Positions 8,090-30,006 of a stretch of DNA of 32,413 nucleotides are shown here, piece by piece. Under the pieces are notes generated by a model. It was not told the origin of the DNA. It ran no database searches and was given only the letters and a program-made list of their open reading frames with translations. Each line of letters starts with the position of its first letter. Within the stretch, counting starts at the first letter, position 1. Source of the stretch: Acidobacteriota bacterium (GTDB lineage Bacteria; Acidobacteriota; Vicinamibacteria; Vicinamibacterales; Fen-181); assembly GCA_017883185.1 (NCBI GenBank), contig JADGOB010000035.1, forward strand, positions 1 through 32,413, given 5' to 3'. Made by a program: the position numbers and the translations under genes.

Positions 8090-8133
8090 AGACACCTCCA
8101 CCATCCGGCTCGCGGCCCAGCACACTCCCGCCC

Positions 8134-8267
8134 GCGCCTTGCGGCTCGCGGCTTGCGGCCCGCATGCCGCCAGGCCGGCCTCAATTCTCGATTCTCAGTT
8201 GTCAACTACCCGACCAGGGCGGTCGTGCGTTTTCCGTTTCCGCCTGTCCGCCCTCCGCCTCTCCGCC
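8134..8267. repeat. Phased heptamer/octamer arrays between lnt and prfB
   Basis: From 8134 the sequence reads in 7-nt steps: GCGCCTT, GCGGCTC, GCGGCTT, GCGGCCC and then drifting units. The same register holds into an AT-richer set (AATTCTC, GATTCTC, AGTTGTC; 8183-8203). A second array of TCCGCC-bearing 7- and 8-mers (TTTCCGCC, TGTCCGCC, CTCCGCC, TCTCCGCC) fills 8237-8267 and ends 3 nt before the lnt stop. The gap holds no other recognisable feature. Confidence 0.6.
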
Positions 8268-8270
8268 TTC

Positions 8271-9800
8271 TCAGTATCGCACCCTCCGCCGCATGGTGAC
8301 GAGGAGGGCCGCCAGCGTCGCGAGGGCGCAGGCGTACACGAAGACGTCGCCGGTTCGCGAGTAGATGGTGCGCGAGGTCAGGAAGCGGATTTCGCCCACG
8401 AGCGATGCCTGCTCGAAGAGACCGCTGCGCATCACCACCCGGCCGTACGGATCGACAATGCCGCTGATGCCCGTGTTCGCCGACCGCGCCAGGTACCTGC
8501 CCTGCTCGATGGCCCGGAGCGATGCCATTTCGAAATGCTGCCACGGCGCGGACGACCGCCCGAACCATGCGTCGTTGGTAATCGTCGTCAGCAACTGGCT
8601 GCCGAGGCGCGTGGCCTGGCGAGCCAGGTCGGGGTAGACCACCTCGTAGCAGATGGCCGTGCTGGCCGGGTGCCCGGCCACCGGCAGCGTCACCATCCGA
8701 TCGCCTTCCGAGAAATCGGAGACAGCCTCCACGAGCGGCCCGACGAAGAACAGGAGCCGCTTCACCGGCACGTACTCGCCAAACGGGACCAGGTGCATCT
8801 TGCGGTACACCGCGGCCACCGTTCCGTGCGGATCCACGAGGAACGCCGAGTTGAAGTAGCGCGGCGGCGTGGTCCTCTCGACCTGGTCGCTGCCGAACAG
8901 CAGGTAGCTGCGCGTCTGGAACGCGACCTGTCGCAGGGCGTCCCCGACGAGCGGGTCGTCCTGGAAGTAGAACGGGAGCGCCGACTCGGGCCACAGGATG
9001 AACCGCGCGCCGCGGCGCGCGACGTCGCGGGTCATGTCCAGGTAGGTCTGGACGATAGTCGCCGCCCTGTCGTGATCCCATTTCTGGTCTTGCGACACGT
9101 TGCCCTGCAGGAGCCCGACCGTCATCGGCACGCCATCGCGGGTCAGCACGTTGTCCCGCAGCCGCGCGCTGCCCCACACCGCGGTCGCCACAACGGCCGC
9201 CACGGTCACTGCCGCCGCCCACCAGCGGAGAGACGTGCGGTCGAAGACGAGGAGCACGAGCGCCGTGCTGACCAGCGTCACCAGCGCCGACAGCCCGTAC
9301 ACGCCGAACACGCTGGCCAGTTGCGCGATCGGGAGGACCGATGCCTGGCTGTACCCGAGCAGCACCCAGGGGAAGCCGGTGAACAGGTAGCCGCGACCCA
9401 GCTCCGTGGTGGCCCAGACGGCAGGCGCGAGGACCAGCCCGCGCGGCCCGAGACGCGCCACCAGCCGATGGAGAACCAGCGCGAAGACGGCGGGATAGAG
9501 CGCAAGGTACGCGGAGAGCACCAGCGTCAGCAGCACCGCGACCGCCGAGGGCAGGTCGCCGTACTGTCGCATCACCGAGCCGGCCCAGTAGATGGTGCCA
9601 ACGAAGTATGCGATGCCGGAGACGAGGCCCAGCGTGAACGCACGCAACGATCCGCTGCGGGCCGCGGCGGGGCCGGAGCCGCCCACGAGGAGACCGGCAA
9701 GAAGCGGTGCGAGCGCGATCCACGCGACGGCCGGATGGCCGAACCGGGGAAAACTCAGCGCGAGCAGAACGCCGGACAGAAGGGCTAGCGAGTAATCAAT
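8271..9800 (-). CDS. lnt: Apolipoprotein N-acyltransferase, apparent ATT start
   Basis: Lnt transfers the third acyl chain to lipoproteins in the inner membrane. The C-terminal half is a nitrilase-fold domain with the triad Glu272 (WPESALP), Lys334 (YRKMHLVPFGEY) and Cys384 (AICYEVVYPD), numbered from 9800; the N-terminal half is multi-spanning. The first ATG/GTG/TTG codon in frame is the GTG at 9686, but the 38 codons before it encode a typical Lnt first helix (LLSGVLLALSFPRFGHPAV). No standard start codon occurs there. The best candidate is ATT at 9800, 11 nt after an AGGAG, giving 509 aa (E. coli 512). CTG at 9779 is an alternative. The N-terminus overlaps the end of the SPOR gene. Confidence 0.88.
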   Translation of the reverse strand: MDYSLALLSGVLLALSFPRFGHPAVAWIALAPLLAGLLVGGSGPAAARSGSLRAFTLGLVSGIAYFVGTIYWAGSVMRQYGDLPSAVAVLLTLVLSAYLALYPAVFALVLHRLVARLGPRGLVLAPAVWATTELGRGYLFTGFPWVLLGYSQASVLPIAQLASVFGVYGLSALVTLVSTALVLLVFDRTSLRWWAAAVTVAAVVATAVWGSARLRDNVLTRDGVPMTVGLLQGNVSQDQKWDHDRAATIVQTYLDMTRDVARRGARFILWPESALPFYFQDDPLVGDALRQVAFQTRSYLLFGSDQVERTTPPRYFNSAFLVDPHGTVAAVYRKMHLVPFGEYVPVKRLLFFVGPLVEAVSDFSEGDRMVTLPVAGHPASTAICYEVVYPDLARQATRLGSQLLTTITNDAWFGRSSAPWQHFEMASLRAIEQGRYLARSANTGISGIVDPYGRVVMRSGLFEQASLVGEIRFLTSRTIYSRTGDVFVYACALATLAALLVTMRRRVRY

Positions 9801-10531
9801 GGCTTGAACTGCTCCTCTCTCTCGAGACGGCCGCGGACCACATCGGCCTCCCGGCGCGTCTTGAACTTGCCCACCCGAACGCTGTACAACACTGGCCCCT
9901 TGCCGGCCAGCGTCACGACATACGTGCTGTAGCCCTTGCCCGACAGCCGCGACGCGAGCGCATCCGCCTGACCTCGATCCCGGTACGCCACGATCTTCAG
10001 GGAATAGCCGGGGCCGGCTGGCTCACCGCTTGCCGCGCCAGCAGGCGCCACAGGTTTCGGCGGCACCGAGGCGGCTGCAGGCACGTCCTTGACCTTCGGC
10101 GCGTCCTTGACCTTCGGCGCGTCCTTGGCCTTCGGCGCGTCCTTGGCCTTCGACGCGTCCTTAGCCTTCGGCGCGTCCTTGGCCTTCGGGTCGGCCTTGG
10201 GCGATTCGGCCGGCGTGCCCTTGTCCGGAAGCCGTGAGTAGTAGCTCAAGTCCTCGTCGGGCGGCGACGGCGGAGCCGAAGCCGGCGGTTGCTGGGGTGT
10301 CGCCCCGGCCTGCGGCTGGAACGCGGCGACGCCCGCGGTCGGGTCGGCGGCCCCCGGCGCGCCCTGGGAGAGCACCTCGTCGGCGACGGCCGACTCCTTC
10401 TGCGCCCGGACCCCGCGCCCGACCAGCACCCCGCACACGAACGTCACCCCCAGGACGACGGCGGCGATCATGAACAGGGAGACGAGTTGCTTCCCGTTCA
10501 ATTGAATTTCGTGAAAACCCTCGTCGGCCAT
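9785..10531 (-). CDS. SPOR-domain membrane protein with hexapeptide repeats
   Basis: This 248-aa bitopic inner-membrane protein has a short cytoplasmic N-terminus, one helix at about 17-38, a Pro/Ala-rich linker and a C-terminal SPOR domain (about 175-248: YSLKIVAYRDRGQADALASRLSGKGY through VLYSVRVGKFKTRREADVV). SPOR domains bind glycan strands lacking stem peptides, typically at division sites, so a cell-envelope or division role is likely. Residues 116-151 hold six KxKDxP hexapeptides (18-bp DNA repeat, 10079-10186), a Lys/Asp-alternating spacer. It starts 9 nt after the slipin stop and its end overlaps lnt, so the genes are probably cotranscribed. Confidence 0.88.
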   Translation of the reverse strand: MADEGFHEIQLNGKQLVSLFMIAAVVLGVTFVCGVLVGRGVRAQKESAVADEVLSQGAPGAADPTAGVAAFQPQAGATPQQPPASAPPSPPDEDLSYYSRLPDKGTPAESPKADPKAKDAPKAKDASKAKDAPKAKDAPKVKDAPKVKDVPAAASVPPKPVAPAGAASGEPAGPGYSLKIVAYRDRGQADALASRLSGKGYSTYVVTLAGKGPVLYSVRVGKFKTRREADVVRGRLEREEQFKPLITR

Positions 10532-22403: not shown

Positions 22404-22418
22404 GGTGAAAACCCAATC

Positions 22419-22514
22419 CCTTGCGACCTTGCGATCTTGCGAGCTGCCAGCCGGCAGCCGCCAGCGGGCAGCAGGCACCGCCCTGTTCCCTAACCCCTAA
22501 CCCCTAACCCCTAC
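22419..22514. repeat. Three consecutive short tandem arrays between birA and coaX
   Basis: Three blocks follow each other. Octamers: CCTTGCGA twice and TCTTGCGA (22419-22442). Five heptamers of the form GCNGSCA in register (22443-22477). After 9 nt, four heptamers: TCCCTAA, CCCCTAA twice and CCCCTAC (22487-22514), running into the last codons of birA. On the minus strand the last block is GGGG-TTA repeated, able to form a G-quadruplex in the transcript just after the birA stop codon. Confidence 0.8.
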
Positions 22515-23359: not shown

Positions 23360-26008
<2,649 letters not shown>

Positions 26009-26056
26009 AGATCTATTAATCGTAATGGAAGAACAGATGATTGAGAAACGGAAATC

Positions 26057-26167
26057 GGGGATCAGGGATCAGGGATCGGGGAGCCGGGATCCGGGGCAGT
26101 CAGGGCCGCAAGTCGCGAACCGCAGGTCGCAGGCCGCCAGCCGCGGGTCGCAAGGCGCGAGCCGGAT
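26057..26167. repeat. Two phased heptamer arrays between the response regulator and valS
   Basis: 26057-26098 reads as six heptamers in register: GGGGATC, AGGGATC, AGGGATC, GGGGAGC, CGGGATC, CGGGGCA. After 6 nt, 26105-26160 holds eight units of the form NNCGCNN (for example GCCGCAA, GTCGCGA, ACCGCAG), with a degenerate ninth to 26167. The core CGC is kept in all eight. The arrays end 13 nt before the response-regulator stop. No other feature is seen in this gap apart from the AT-rich valS leader. Confidence 0.8.
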
Positions 26168-26180
26168 TGTCGTCTCGAGG

Positions 26181-27416
26181 CTACCGGATCGAGGCCTTGA
26201 GGCGCTCGATCTCTTCGCAGACAAGGCGTTCCGCCGTCGCCGAGACGACCTGGGAGACGACATCGCGGAACGCAGGCTCGCCAAGGCGCTCGAGCACCCG
26301 GCGCGCGACGTCGGAGACGAACGTGTCGGTGACCACCGTGCCCGGAAGCATGACAGTGACGACCGCTCCCGCGTCATGCCGATGGATCACGTCGGCGCCG
26401 TGCTCGCGCTCGGCGTCGAGGAGCGCGGCAAACGCCTCAGAGACCGGCAGCGCGGCATACGCGTCCGTGGCCAGCGGCGCGGCAGCCGAGGCGGCCGCTT
26501 CGAGGTCGTCGCCCGGCGATGACGAGGCGCCGAACGCCGGCCCTGGGCCGAAGACATCCGGACGGACGCGATCCGGATCGAGTCCTGGTTCGCGGGTGAA
26601 ATCCGGGAACACGACGCCGGTGTCCGTGCCGACCGGCGTCGCCGGGACAGCAGGCCACTCGTGCGTTGCCCTGACCGCCGCCGCCCACGGGTCGGCTCCC
26701 TGCGCCTTCGACGTCGTCGCGGCCTCGCGGCCCGACGGGGCGCCGGTCAGATGTGCAAACGCCGCATCGAGGCGATCGAAGTAGTCGTCGAGGGAGCCGT
26801 CGGCCGAGGGAGCCGGCTCCGAACGCAGGTTCAGCGATTCCACATCCAGGCGGAGATCATTCTCCGCTGGCACCATCGGCGGCCGCGGCATCCGCACGGT
26901 CGCGTCCTCCTCGAACTCGCTGCCGCTGGCGTCCTCAACAGCGACGAGCGGGGCGTTGCCGGTGTCCGGCTCGATCTGGAGAACCACGACCACGGCCGGC
27001 TGGTCCGCGGGCGGTTGCTCGGCAACCTGCGCGTCTGAGGAAGGCACCACGCCGCTCAGCAGTTCCTTCACACGGTTAATCAGCAACTGTGGCTCGAACG
27101 GCTTGGCCAGGACGCCGTTGCAACGGATCGACCGCGCACGCTCTTCGTCCACCGGCTCGAACGCGCCCGTGAGGAGCAGCACGGGGATGTGCGCGAGAGC
27201 CGGGTCGTCCTTGATGAACGCCGCCACTTCGTACCCGTCACGCTTCGGCATCCCGACGTCGGCCAGCACGATGTCCGGGCGCTCGACCAGGATGCGATCG
27301 ATCGCCTGCTGGCCGTCACCGACCGCCGTCACCTTGACGTCTTCATCGGCGAAGGTGAGCTCGATCACCCGCTGAATCGTGACACTGTCGTCTGCGAGCA
27401 GGAGTTTGTACGGCAT
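26181..27416 (-). CDS. Response regulator with long acidic linker and unknown C-terminal domain
   Basis: A 411-aa protein with an N-terminal receiver domain (1-120): Asp9/Asp10 (LLLADDSVT), phosphoacceptor Asp53 (IVLADVGMPKRDGYE), Thr83 (VLLLTGAFEP) and Lys105 (VLAKPFEPQ). A Pro/Ala/Asp-rich linker of about 200 residues follows, then a small helical C-terminal domain (about 340-411, VTDTFVSDVARRVLERLGEPAFRDVVSQVVSATAERLVCEEIERL). No DNA-binding or enzymatic output domain is recognisable, so it probably acts by protein contact. The start is set at ATG 27416, where the receiver begins. No sensor kinase lies nearby. Confidence 0.87.
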   Translation of the reverse strand: MPYKLLLADDSVTIQRVIELTFADEDVKVTAVGDGQQAIDRILVERPDIVLADVGMPKRDGYEVAAFIKDDPALAHIPVLLLTGAFEPVDEERARSIRCNGVLAKPFEPQLLINRVKELLSGVVPSSDAQVAEQPPADQPAVVVVLQIEPDTGNAPLVAVEDASGSEFEEDATVRMPRPPMVPAENDLRLDVESLNLRSEPAPSADGSLDDYFDRLDAAFAHLTGAPSGREAATTSKAQGADPWAAAVRATHEWPAVPATPVGTDTGVVFPDFTREPGLDPDRVRPDVFGPGPAFGASSSPGDDLEAAASAAAPLATDAYAALPVSEAFAALLDAEREHGADVIHRHDAGAVVTVMLPGTVVTDTFVSDVARRVLERLGEPAFRDVVSQVVSATAERLVCEEIERLKASIR

Positions 27417-27900: not shown

Positions 27901-28003
27901 GGTCACCTCAGAGGCTTGCGCCTTTCGACGTGCGGTCCTGCCCACGAATCGGTGCGGCGGTGTGTTGGCCGCCAGCCGCGAGCCGGAAGGCGCAGGCCGG
28001 CCG
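27901..28003. repeat. Gap between the mutase subunits, with a heptamer array
   Basis: 27968-28002 reads as five heptamers in register (GCCGCCA, GCCGCGA, GCCGGAA, GGCGCAG, GCCGGCC), ending 1 nt before the large-subunit stop codon. The 14-mer GGCCGCCAGCCGCG at 27967-27980 recurs at 26132-26145 in another array. The rest of the gap is the small-subunit leader. Confidence 0.65.
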
Positions 28004-29893: not shown

Positions 29894-30006
29894 ATCAGTT
29901 CCGACCCTTCATCGTCAGTTCCGACCCTTCATCGTCAGTTCCGACCCTTCGTCGTCAGTTCCGACCCTTCATCGTCAGTTCCGACCCTTCGTCGTCAGTT
30001 CCGACT
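29894..30006. repeat. 20-bp tandem repeat array, about 5.5 copies
   Basis: CAGTTCCGACCCTTCRTCGT repeats every 20 bp from about 29896, with the sixth copy cut after CAGTTCCGAC. The only variation is A/G at one position. The array begins 7 bp after the stop codon of the minus-strand FAD oxidase gene. Twenty is not a multiple of three, so open frames across it are not real. The remaining upstream part of this gap (29687-29893) is GC-rich without recognisable features. Confidence 0.95.

Follow-up and report, generated by a model that had tools for sequence, protein, structure and literature searches.

Phased heptamer arrays upstream of valS in a Vicinamibacterales genome and their relation to dispersed intergenic heptamer repeats

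Heptamer repeats in other bacteria

Among the simple sequence repeats of bacteria, heptamers are over-represented (PMC4692102). The STRR heptamers of heterocystous cyanobacteria such as Calothrix are, as far as they are cited in PMC4692102, 7-nt tandem units that form several families per genome. Repeats of GGGAATC in Xanthomonas and of GGGGA(C/T)T in Nostoc occur at many intergenic loci close to gene ends and form G-quadruplexes (G4) in vitro, and each Xanthomonas genome carries 70–75 inverted convergent heptamer pairs, with 83% of the sites common to two species (Rehm et al. 2015, PMC4692102). In marine Beggiatoaceae, TAACTGA repeats are dispersed, intergenic and patchy in their taxonomy, and mostly lie directly upstream of start codons (PMC4679880), while P6b of the Nostoc tRNA-Leu intron is a stem-loop of degenerate heptanucleotide repeats with varying copy number (PMC3488679). 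For a preferred slippage step of 7 nt, the footprint of the polymerase has been considered (PMC4692102, PMC4679880). Our literature search returned no report of heptamer repeats in Acidobacteriota.

The arrays described here are STRR-like repeats in a new phylum. They share with STRRs the 7-nt tandem units above chance, the intergenic position and the presence of several families per genome, but differ in their unit sequences (no GGGGAYT) and in that one family supplies the arms of a hairpin element that has a core and, at one locus, an empty site. With the G4 heptamers of Xanthomonas and Nostoc they have in common GGG(G) plus 3–4 nt in every 7 nt, the intergenic location near gene ends and inverted pairs, although the unit GGGATCR deviates from the consensus GGGNATC/GGGGAYT. 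Whereas most Xanthomonas sites are common to two species, with no core or mobility reported, several gaps in our genomes differ among close relatives in whether they hold arrays. The Beggiatoaceae repeats are likewise dispersed intergenic 7-nt direct repeats of patchy taxonomy, but consist of one unit located mostly upstream of starts, and the heptanucleotide stem-loop of Nostoc P6b is confined to one intron loop instead of being dispersed. Similarities extend to MITEs, REP/BIME and the small dispersed repeats of Nostoc punctiforme, which are also short, non-coding, dispersed in intergenic DNA, bounded by inverted ends and associated with empty sites; here, in contrast, the arms are phased heptamers of variable number, no target duplication was seen at the empty site and no RAYT was found in the genome.

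The gap between valS and the response regulator gene

The window, i.e., the whole analysed stretch of 32,413 nt, is contig C98 of a Vicinamibacterales MAG (G000; 4.85 Mb, 395 contigs); all genomes compared are draft MAGs. The nearest named relatives of its valS belong to acidobacterial and Vicinamibacterales MAGs, the closest (98%) being isolate GL140_5_metabinner_95, so that the original prediction of an STRR-like system in an acidobacterial host was borne out, with a genome-wide set of several families. The predicted flanking genes, both on the minus strand, were confirmed by their conserved domains. The features of the gap are as follows:

23360–26008, minus strand: valS, valyl-tRNA synthetase (PF00133, PF08264, PF10458), whose gene start bounds the gap
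26050–26098, plus strand: NGGGATC heptamer array, G-rich on the plus strand and of CCCTGAT type on the minus strand, with degenerate units at both flanks
26092–26105, no strand assigned: 14-nt linker CGGGGCAGTCAGGG between the arrays
26103–26168, minus strand: CGC-type array, a single (CTTGCGR)n arm of a heptamer-armed hairpin element, with AATCCGGCTCGCGCCTTGCGACCCGCGGCTGGCGGCCTGCGACCTGCGGTTCGCGACTTGCGGCC on the minus strand
26181–27416, minus strand: response-regulator receiver protein gene (PF00072, E 1.1e-19), with the CGC array just past its stop

The NGGGATC units at 26057–26091 read GGGGATC, AGGGATC, AGGGATC, GGGGAGC and CGGGATC and are flanked by the degenerate units GGAAATC (26050) and CGGGGCA (26092). 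Thus, the 7-nt register predicted for six units holds, but five of them are good (one with GGGAGC) and the sixth is a degenerate unit that had been counted in. The arrays are separated by 14 nt, or by 7 nt when CGGGGCA is taken as a unit, and not by 6 nt as had been stated. At 26106–26161, all eight expected CGC-type units (CCGCAAG, TCGCGAA, CCGCAGG, TCGCAGG, CCGCCAG, CCGCGGG, TCGCAAG, GCGCGAG) were present with the CGC core in 8/8. Read in the GCGRCYN register, this arm comprises nine units, with AATCCGG at its outer and GCGGCC at its inner end; a partner arm was not found in the gap. With a GGG run every 7 nt, the NGGGATC array would in principle be capable of forming a G-quadruplex, as judged from its sequence.

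Lag-7 identity in the interval first described as repetitive (26057–26167) amounted to 62 matches in 104 comparisons, compared to 33.1±4.7 in dinucleotide shuffles (0/2000 as high), and in the whole gap to 83/165, compared to 45.5±5.7 (2000 dinucleotide shuffles). Each array singly exceeded all shuffles (z=5.6 for array 1, z=4.7 for array 2), and lags 7, 14, and 21 alone stood out. The two phased families are therefore real, with a lag-7 signal far above that of shuffled sequence. A hairpin within the gap was rejected, since its DNA strand folded no better than shuffles (z 0.26).

Period 7 across the genome and the CGC-armed element

The lag-7 comparison of intergenic regions with shuffled controls, which had been proposed as a check, was run on a sample of ~0.83 Mb (~17% of the genome), partly picked for GGGATC arrays and with genes called by a home-made finder. 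Within 143 kb of intergenic sequence, it revealed 28 lag-7 arrays versus 0.0 in shuffles; any other lag between 4 and 13 yielded 0–3 arrays. Lags 14 and 21 were harmonics of 7, and lag 20 represented a separate 20-mer family. This second genome-wide tandem family has the 20-nt unit TCAGTTCCGACCCTTCATCG with variants, in 2–15 copies at ~20 loci in 0.86 Mb (window 29895–30005, L050:71–317, L062:1880–2190, L089:7327–7509, L076:9356–9461, and others). A further repeat of the window, the 18-nt unit GGCGCGTCCTTGGCCTTC at 10080–10200 (6.7 copies), has a length that is a multiple of three and lies in a predicted minus-strand gene (9785–10531).

The period-7 arrays are mainly intergenic (53 of 60) and fall into many unit families, e.g., GGGATCR, GCGRCYN, ACAGCSG, and GTTGYCA. 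Outside the portion of the sample picked for GGGATC, similar units (≥0.7) were shared by 24 of 273 unlinked array pairs, while 3.1±1.6 were obtained by column permutation and 4.5±2.2 with random intergenic heptamers. Since unlinked arrays thus share families above chance, they were not seeded independently as products of local slippage, in agreement with the original view that more than slippage of one local seed is involved. An inverted partner within 250 bp was detected for 11 of 60 arrays (2.2 expected), inverted pairs being rare in the GGGATC family itself. In-phase drift between unit types, observed at L036:16958, L360:341, and L066:9878, is real, yet it is not needed to explain the valS gap.

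Regarding their position, 22 of the 45 intergenic arrays had a stop codon as the nearest gene end at a distance of up to 40 nt and 8 a start, in a raw count. A role of Rho, as a terminator or at the RNA level was rejected in view of the mixed strand orientation and the lack of an Rfam match, and G-quadruplexes as a general explanation in view of the many families without G runs. A hidden rule common to all units (GNNRNYN or CTGAYYN) appeared very strong over all arrays, but was rejected as unproven because the effect shrank to ~1.6–2.6 SD when each family was counted once.

Other short repeats were noticed in the same intergenic DNA. The perfect palindrome GGGCGACCGGCCGGTCGCCC is dispersed and adjoins heptamer arrays at L039:1029, L067:7032, and L075:2172; it also occurs at L298, and the palindrome GCGGGCCTTCAGGCCCGC lies beside other heptamer arrays. 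Both are reminiscent of the small dispersed repeats of Nostoc punctiforme, which are short and embedded in heptamer arrays. In addition, ACGATCTCAGCCCTGGAAGATGTCTA and CCTAAGACAGATTCCAGGGG are repeated in intergenic DNA of G000 (5–7 copies in the sample) and are possibly the ends of another dispersed element.

Outside of the valS gap, both of its families are widespread. With 0–1 mismatch, the GGGATC family matched its own genome 28 times in forward and 12 times in reverse orientation, compared to 0 and 4 times when the pattern was reversed, and was detected in 16 of 40 relatives, with a patchy distribution between and within families. A CGC arm followed by a CCCTGAT array of 28–42 nt was found in the valS gap and at L060:13522, L353, and L377, in two species; the count comprises just these four arrays, as a loose C-rich regular expression gave many spurious matches. 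In 4/4 composites the CCCTGAT array lies on the inner side of the arm and on the same strand, while the phase offsets are 0, 5, 3, and 4 without a common register. Because the offset differs, we read the composites as a recurrent joining of modules and not as one array that switches its unit, and the end-to-end pair in the valS gap looks like such joined modules. The second and third composite gaps are organised as follows:

8103–8207, plus strand: second composite gap, with a CGC-type arm (TTGCGGC, TCGCGGC, TTGCGGC) at 8134–8160, then CTCAATT/CTCGATT/CTCAGTT at 8180–8205
22419–22513, plus strand: third composite gap, with CCTTGCGA 8-mers, GCAGCC-type heptamers, then CCCTAAC heptamers

The complete CGC-armed element shows the order ATCCGG, phased (CTTGCGR)n, GCGGCC, core, GGCCGC, inverted (YCGCAAG)n, and CCGGAT, with the end sequence ATCCGGCTTGCG. 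A query with one paired locus resulted in 20 matching places in G000, and G000 and G003 together provided ~25 paired copies. Six cores of G000 have a length of 88–91 nt and form two similarity groups, namely L060/L069/L365/L372 (mutual similarity z 3.8–5.7) and L058/L370 (z 5.0). The cores of G003 are mostly 14–27 nt long, several of them with centres resembling TGTCACGCGTGACA, and a similar centre is present in hairpins of G000 with GTTGYCA/ACTGACC heptamer arms. To speak of one element is therefore a simplification, since two or more types of core occur alongside short loops. One paired copy is located in the window itself:

27911–28000, plus strand: degenerate paired CGC-type copy, with left arm 27911–27938, a 27-nt core, and right arm 27966–28000

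This copy lies directly past the stop of a methylmalonyl-CoA mutase gene and is predicted to fold into a single hairpin (z -3.1). In general, predicted folds of paired copies and of GTTGYCA hairpins were better than those of shuffles (z -1.9 to -4.4), with mismatches at a spacing of ~7 nt. At variable sites, facing units within an element resembled each other less than random pairs did (0.38 versus 0.473±0.031, p~0.001), in a small sample of 24 elements. This is the opposite of compensatory pairing between the arms and speaks against selection for perfect pairing; instability of perfect palindromes may be the reason for the imperfect arms.

Comparison with relatives and origin of the arrays

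G001, with an identity of ~96% in aligned stretches, is the closest relative. The gap segment has 233 nt in both genomes and both arrays are kept, with substitutions only (alignment noise aside), so that the same gap is also repetitive in a close relative and does not consist of conserved non-repetitive sequence. Unit number and family, for which changes had been considered, were thus kept in G001, but upstream of valS a CCCCGAT array was present in G002 and neither array in G004. In other gaps that carry arrays, G000 and G001 differ by gains or losses of arrays, and in the third composite gap (22404–22510) G001 is longer by 14 nt, exactly two heptamers. Within the genus, matches to the CGC pattern versus its reversed control amounted to 104/23 in G000, 170/20 in G003, 46/19 in G001, and 14/23 in G004. 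The pattern did not exceed the reversed control in G004, G005, and G006. In G002 the reversed control gave 306 matches and the pattern 137, which suggests another heptamer family there.

At a relaxed threshold, the density of lag-7 arrays per 100 kb was 3.4 in this genome and 29–49 at three other loci of Vicinamibacterales; a set of further relatives had 1.5, and a set made up mostly of Aminicenantes 0.2. One Aminicenantes MAG (CSMAG_1065, L133) carried eight AT-rich arrays of TTAAACA/TTAAACC type in 22.6 kb, while other Aminicenantes loci had nearly none. In G030 (L251–L270), of the same order as G000, periods 8 and 9 were about as common as 7, with the units AAAGGCA, AAAGTTA, and CGGGATC. 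The valS gap of another Vicinamibacterales MAG (L096:8239–8317) harbours an inverted GAGAATT/TTCTCCA pair unrelated in sequence to the arrays of the window.

One clean empty site was identified at L287, an operon gap, where the distance from the stop to the next start is ~200 nt with the element in G000, compared to ~5–20 nt in G001 (94% identity), G002, G003, and G004. A target-site duplication was not evident at this single site, whose flanks have partly diverged, and the insertion extends beyond the element proper by ~10 nt on the left and ~40 nt on the right. As a second, less clean empty site, the copy at L060 is absent in G003, while a few CGC-like units are present at this site in G004. 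At L290 the left arm is common to G001, in which ~1.9 kb of inserted DNA (G001:C189:11222–13091) interrupts the copy, and the gap of G003 contains a heptamer stretch of another family. The other-family hairpins and arrays at L290 and in the valS gaps of other species also fit local generation. The CGC element thus shows features of MITEs, i.e., terminal inverted repeats, absence of coding sequence, a length of <500 nt, multiple copies, and empty sites in relatives. A search of G000 for a RAYT/Y1 transposase (PF01797), the class searched, gave no match, and no long element with both ends of the CGC element was found in the sampled part of the genome. The empty-site case covers one locus and not the valS gap, whose arrays have the same length in the closest relative.

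On balance, we consider it fairly probable that the arrays of the valS gap are two members of a dispersed population of intergenic heptamers, in which CGC arms spread as an inserting hairpin element and are then resized and decay. Accordingly read, both the CGC arm and the GGGATC array would belong to genome-wide dispersed repeats. The CGC hairpin element, of ~80–155 nt with arms of 3–9 phased heptamers inverted around a core of ~90 nt or of ~3–27 nt, would have spread in some lineages of the genus by insertion into intergenic gaps, often beside stop codons, presumably by a transposition-like insertion of ready-made elements. GGGATC would represent a second dispersed family that repeatedly ended up beside CGC arms. 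Once in place, arms and arrays would gain or lose whole 7-nt units, through slippage or unequal exchange that resizes the arms, and would decay as point substitutions accumulate. We infer that the repeat load is mainly selfish or neutral, with incidental effects on expression.

Ordinary heptamer microsatellites, each born in place by slippage that favours steps of 7 nt and then eroded by point mutations, would explain the strong preference for period 7, the 14-nt and 35-nt length differences seen in two gaps when G000 is compared with G001, and the many families with degenerate units. They do not predict, however, that unlinked loci have families in common, that inverted arms enclose similar cores of 88–91 nt, or that an empty site is clean, and we regard this origin as unlikely. 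Less probable still is a selected role in cis, in which the arrays would act on neighbouring genes as 3'-UTR hairpins, terminators, or G-quadruplex/protein-binding arrays. The excess of stop codons over starts as nearest gene ends would agree with such a function, but this neighbourhood is also where insertions are tolerated. Stable predicted hairpins and the layout of one GGG per 7 nt, which forms G4 in vitro for the Xanthomonas/Nostoc heptamers (PMC4692102), point in the same direction, whereas the valS-gap strand folds like shuffled sequence, the orientation towards genes is mixed, Rfam gave no match, presence varies among close relatives, and both arrays are absent upstream of valS in G004.

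The process suggested by the original prediction, which extends heptamers in a fixed phase and then switches the unit, appears very improbable. Cut into NGGGATC and YCGCRRG units, both arrays of the valS gap fall on a single 7-nt grid, and the three loci with in-phase drift are of the kind it would produce, but each of the two families is common alone, the CGC part has defined ends and belongs, as an arm, to a separate element, and the four composites of the same families differ in their offsets.

Because one array is the arm of a hairpin element with an empty site at one locus, travelling, insertable elements may also underlie the heptamer repeats of cyanobacteria and Xanthomonas. More tentatively, and with considerable doubt on our side, bacterial heptamer repeats in general might be arms of a class of hairpins mobilised by some enzyme, in which differing arm families surround shared cores (such as the TGTCACGCGTGACA-like ones, which G003 combines with CGC arms and G000 with GTTGYCA/ACTGACC arms) and the arms are kept imperfectly complementary with mismatches spaced by ~7 nt. 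Heptamer repeats have been known for decades in cyanobacteria and xanthomonads without an accepted origin, and a new phylum now supplies pieces for testing it, namely arms in inverted pairs around similar cores, a site that is empty in close relatives, and changes in unit number. If the arms are indeed parts of mobile hairpins, the question would move from a 7-nt slip of the polymerase to the mover of these elements and to the reason why sevens make up their ends.
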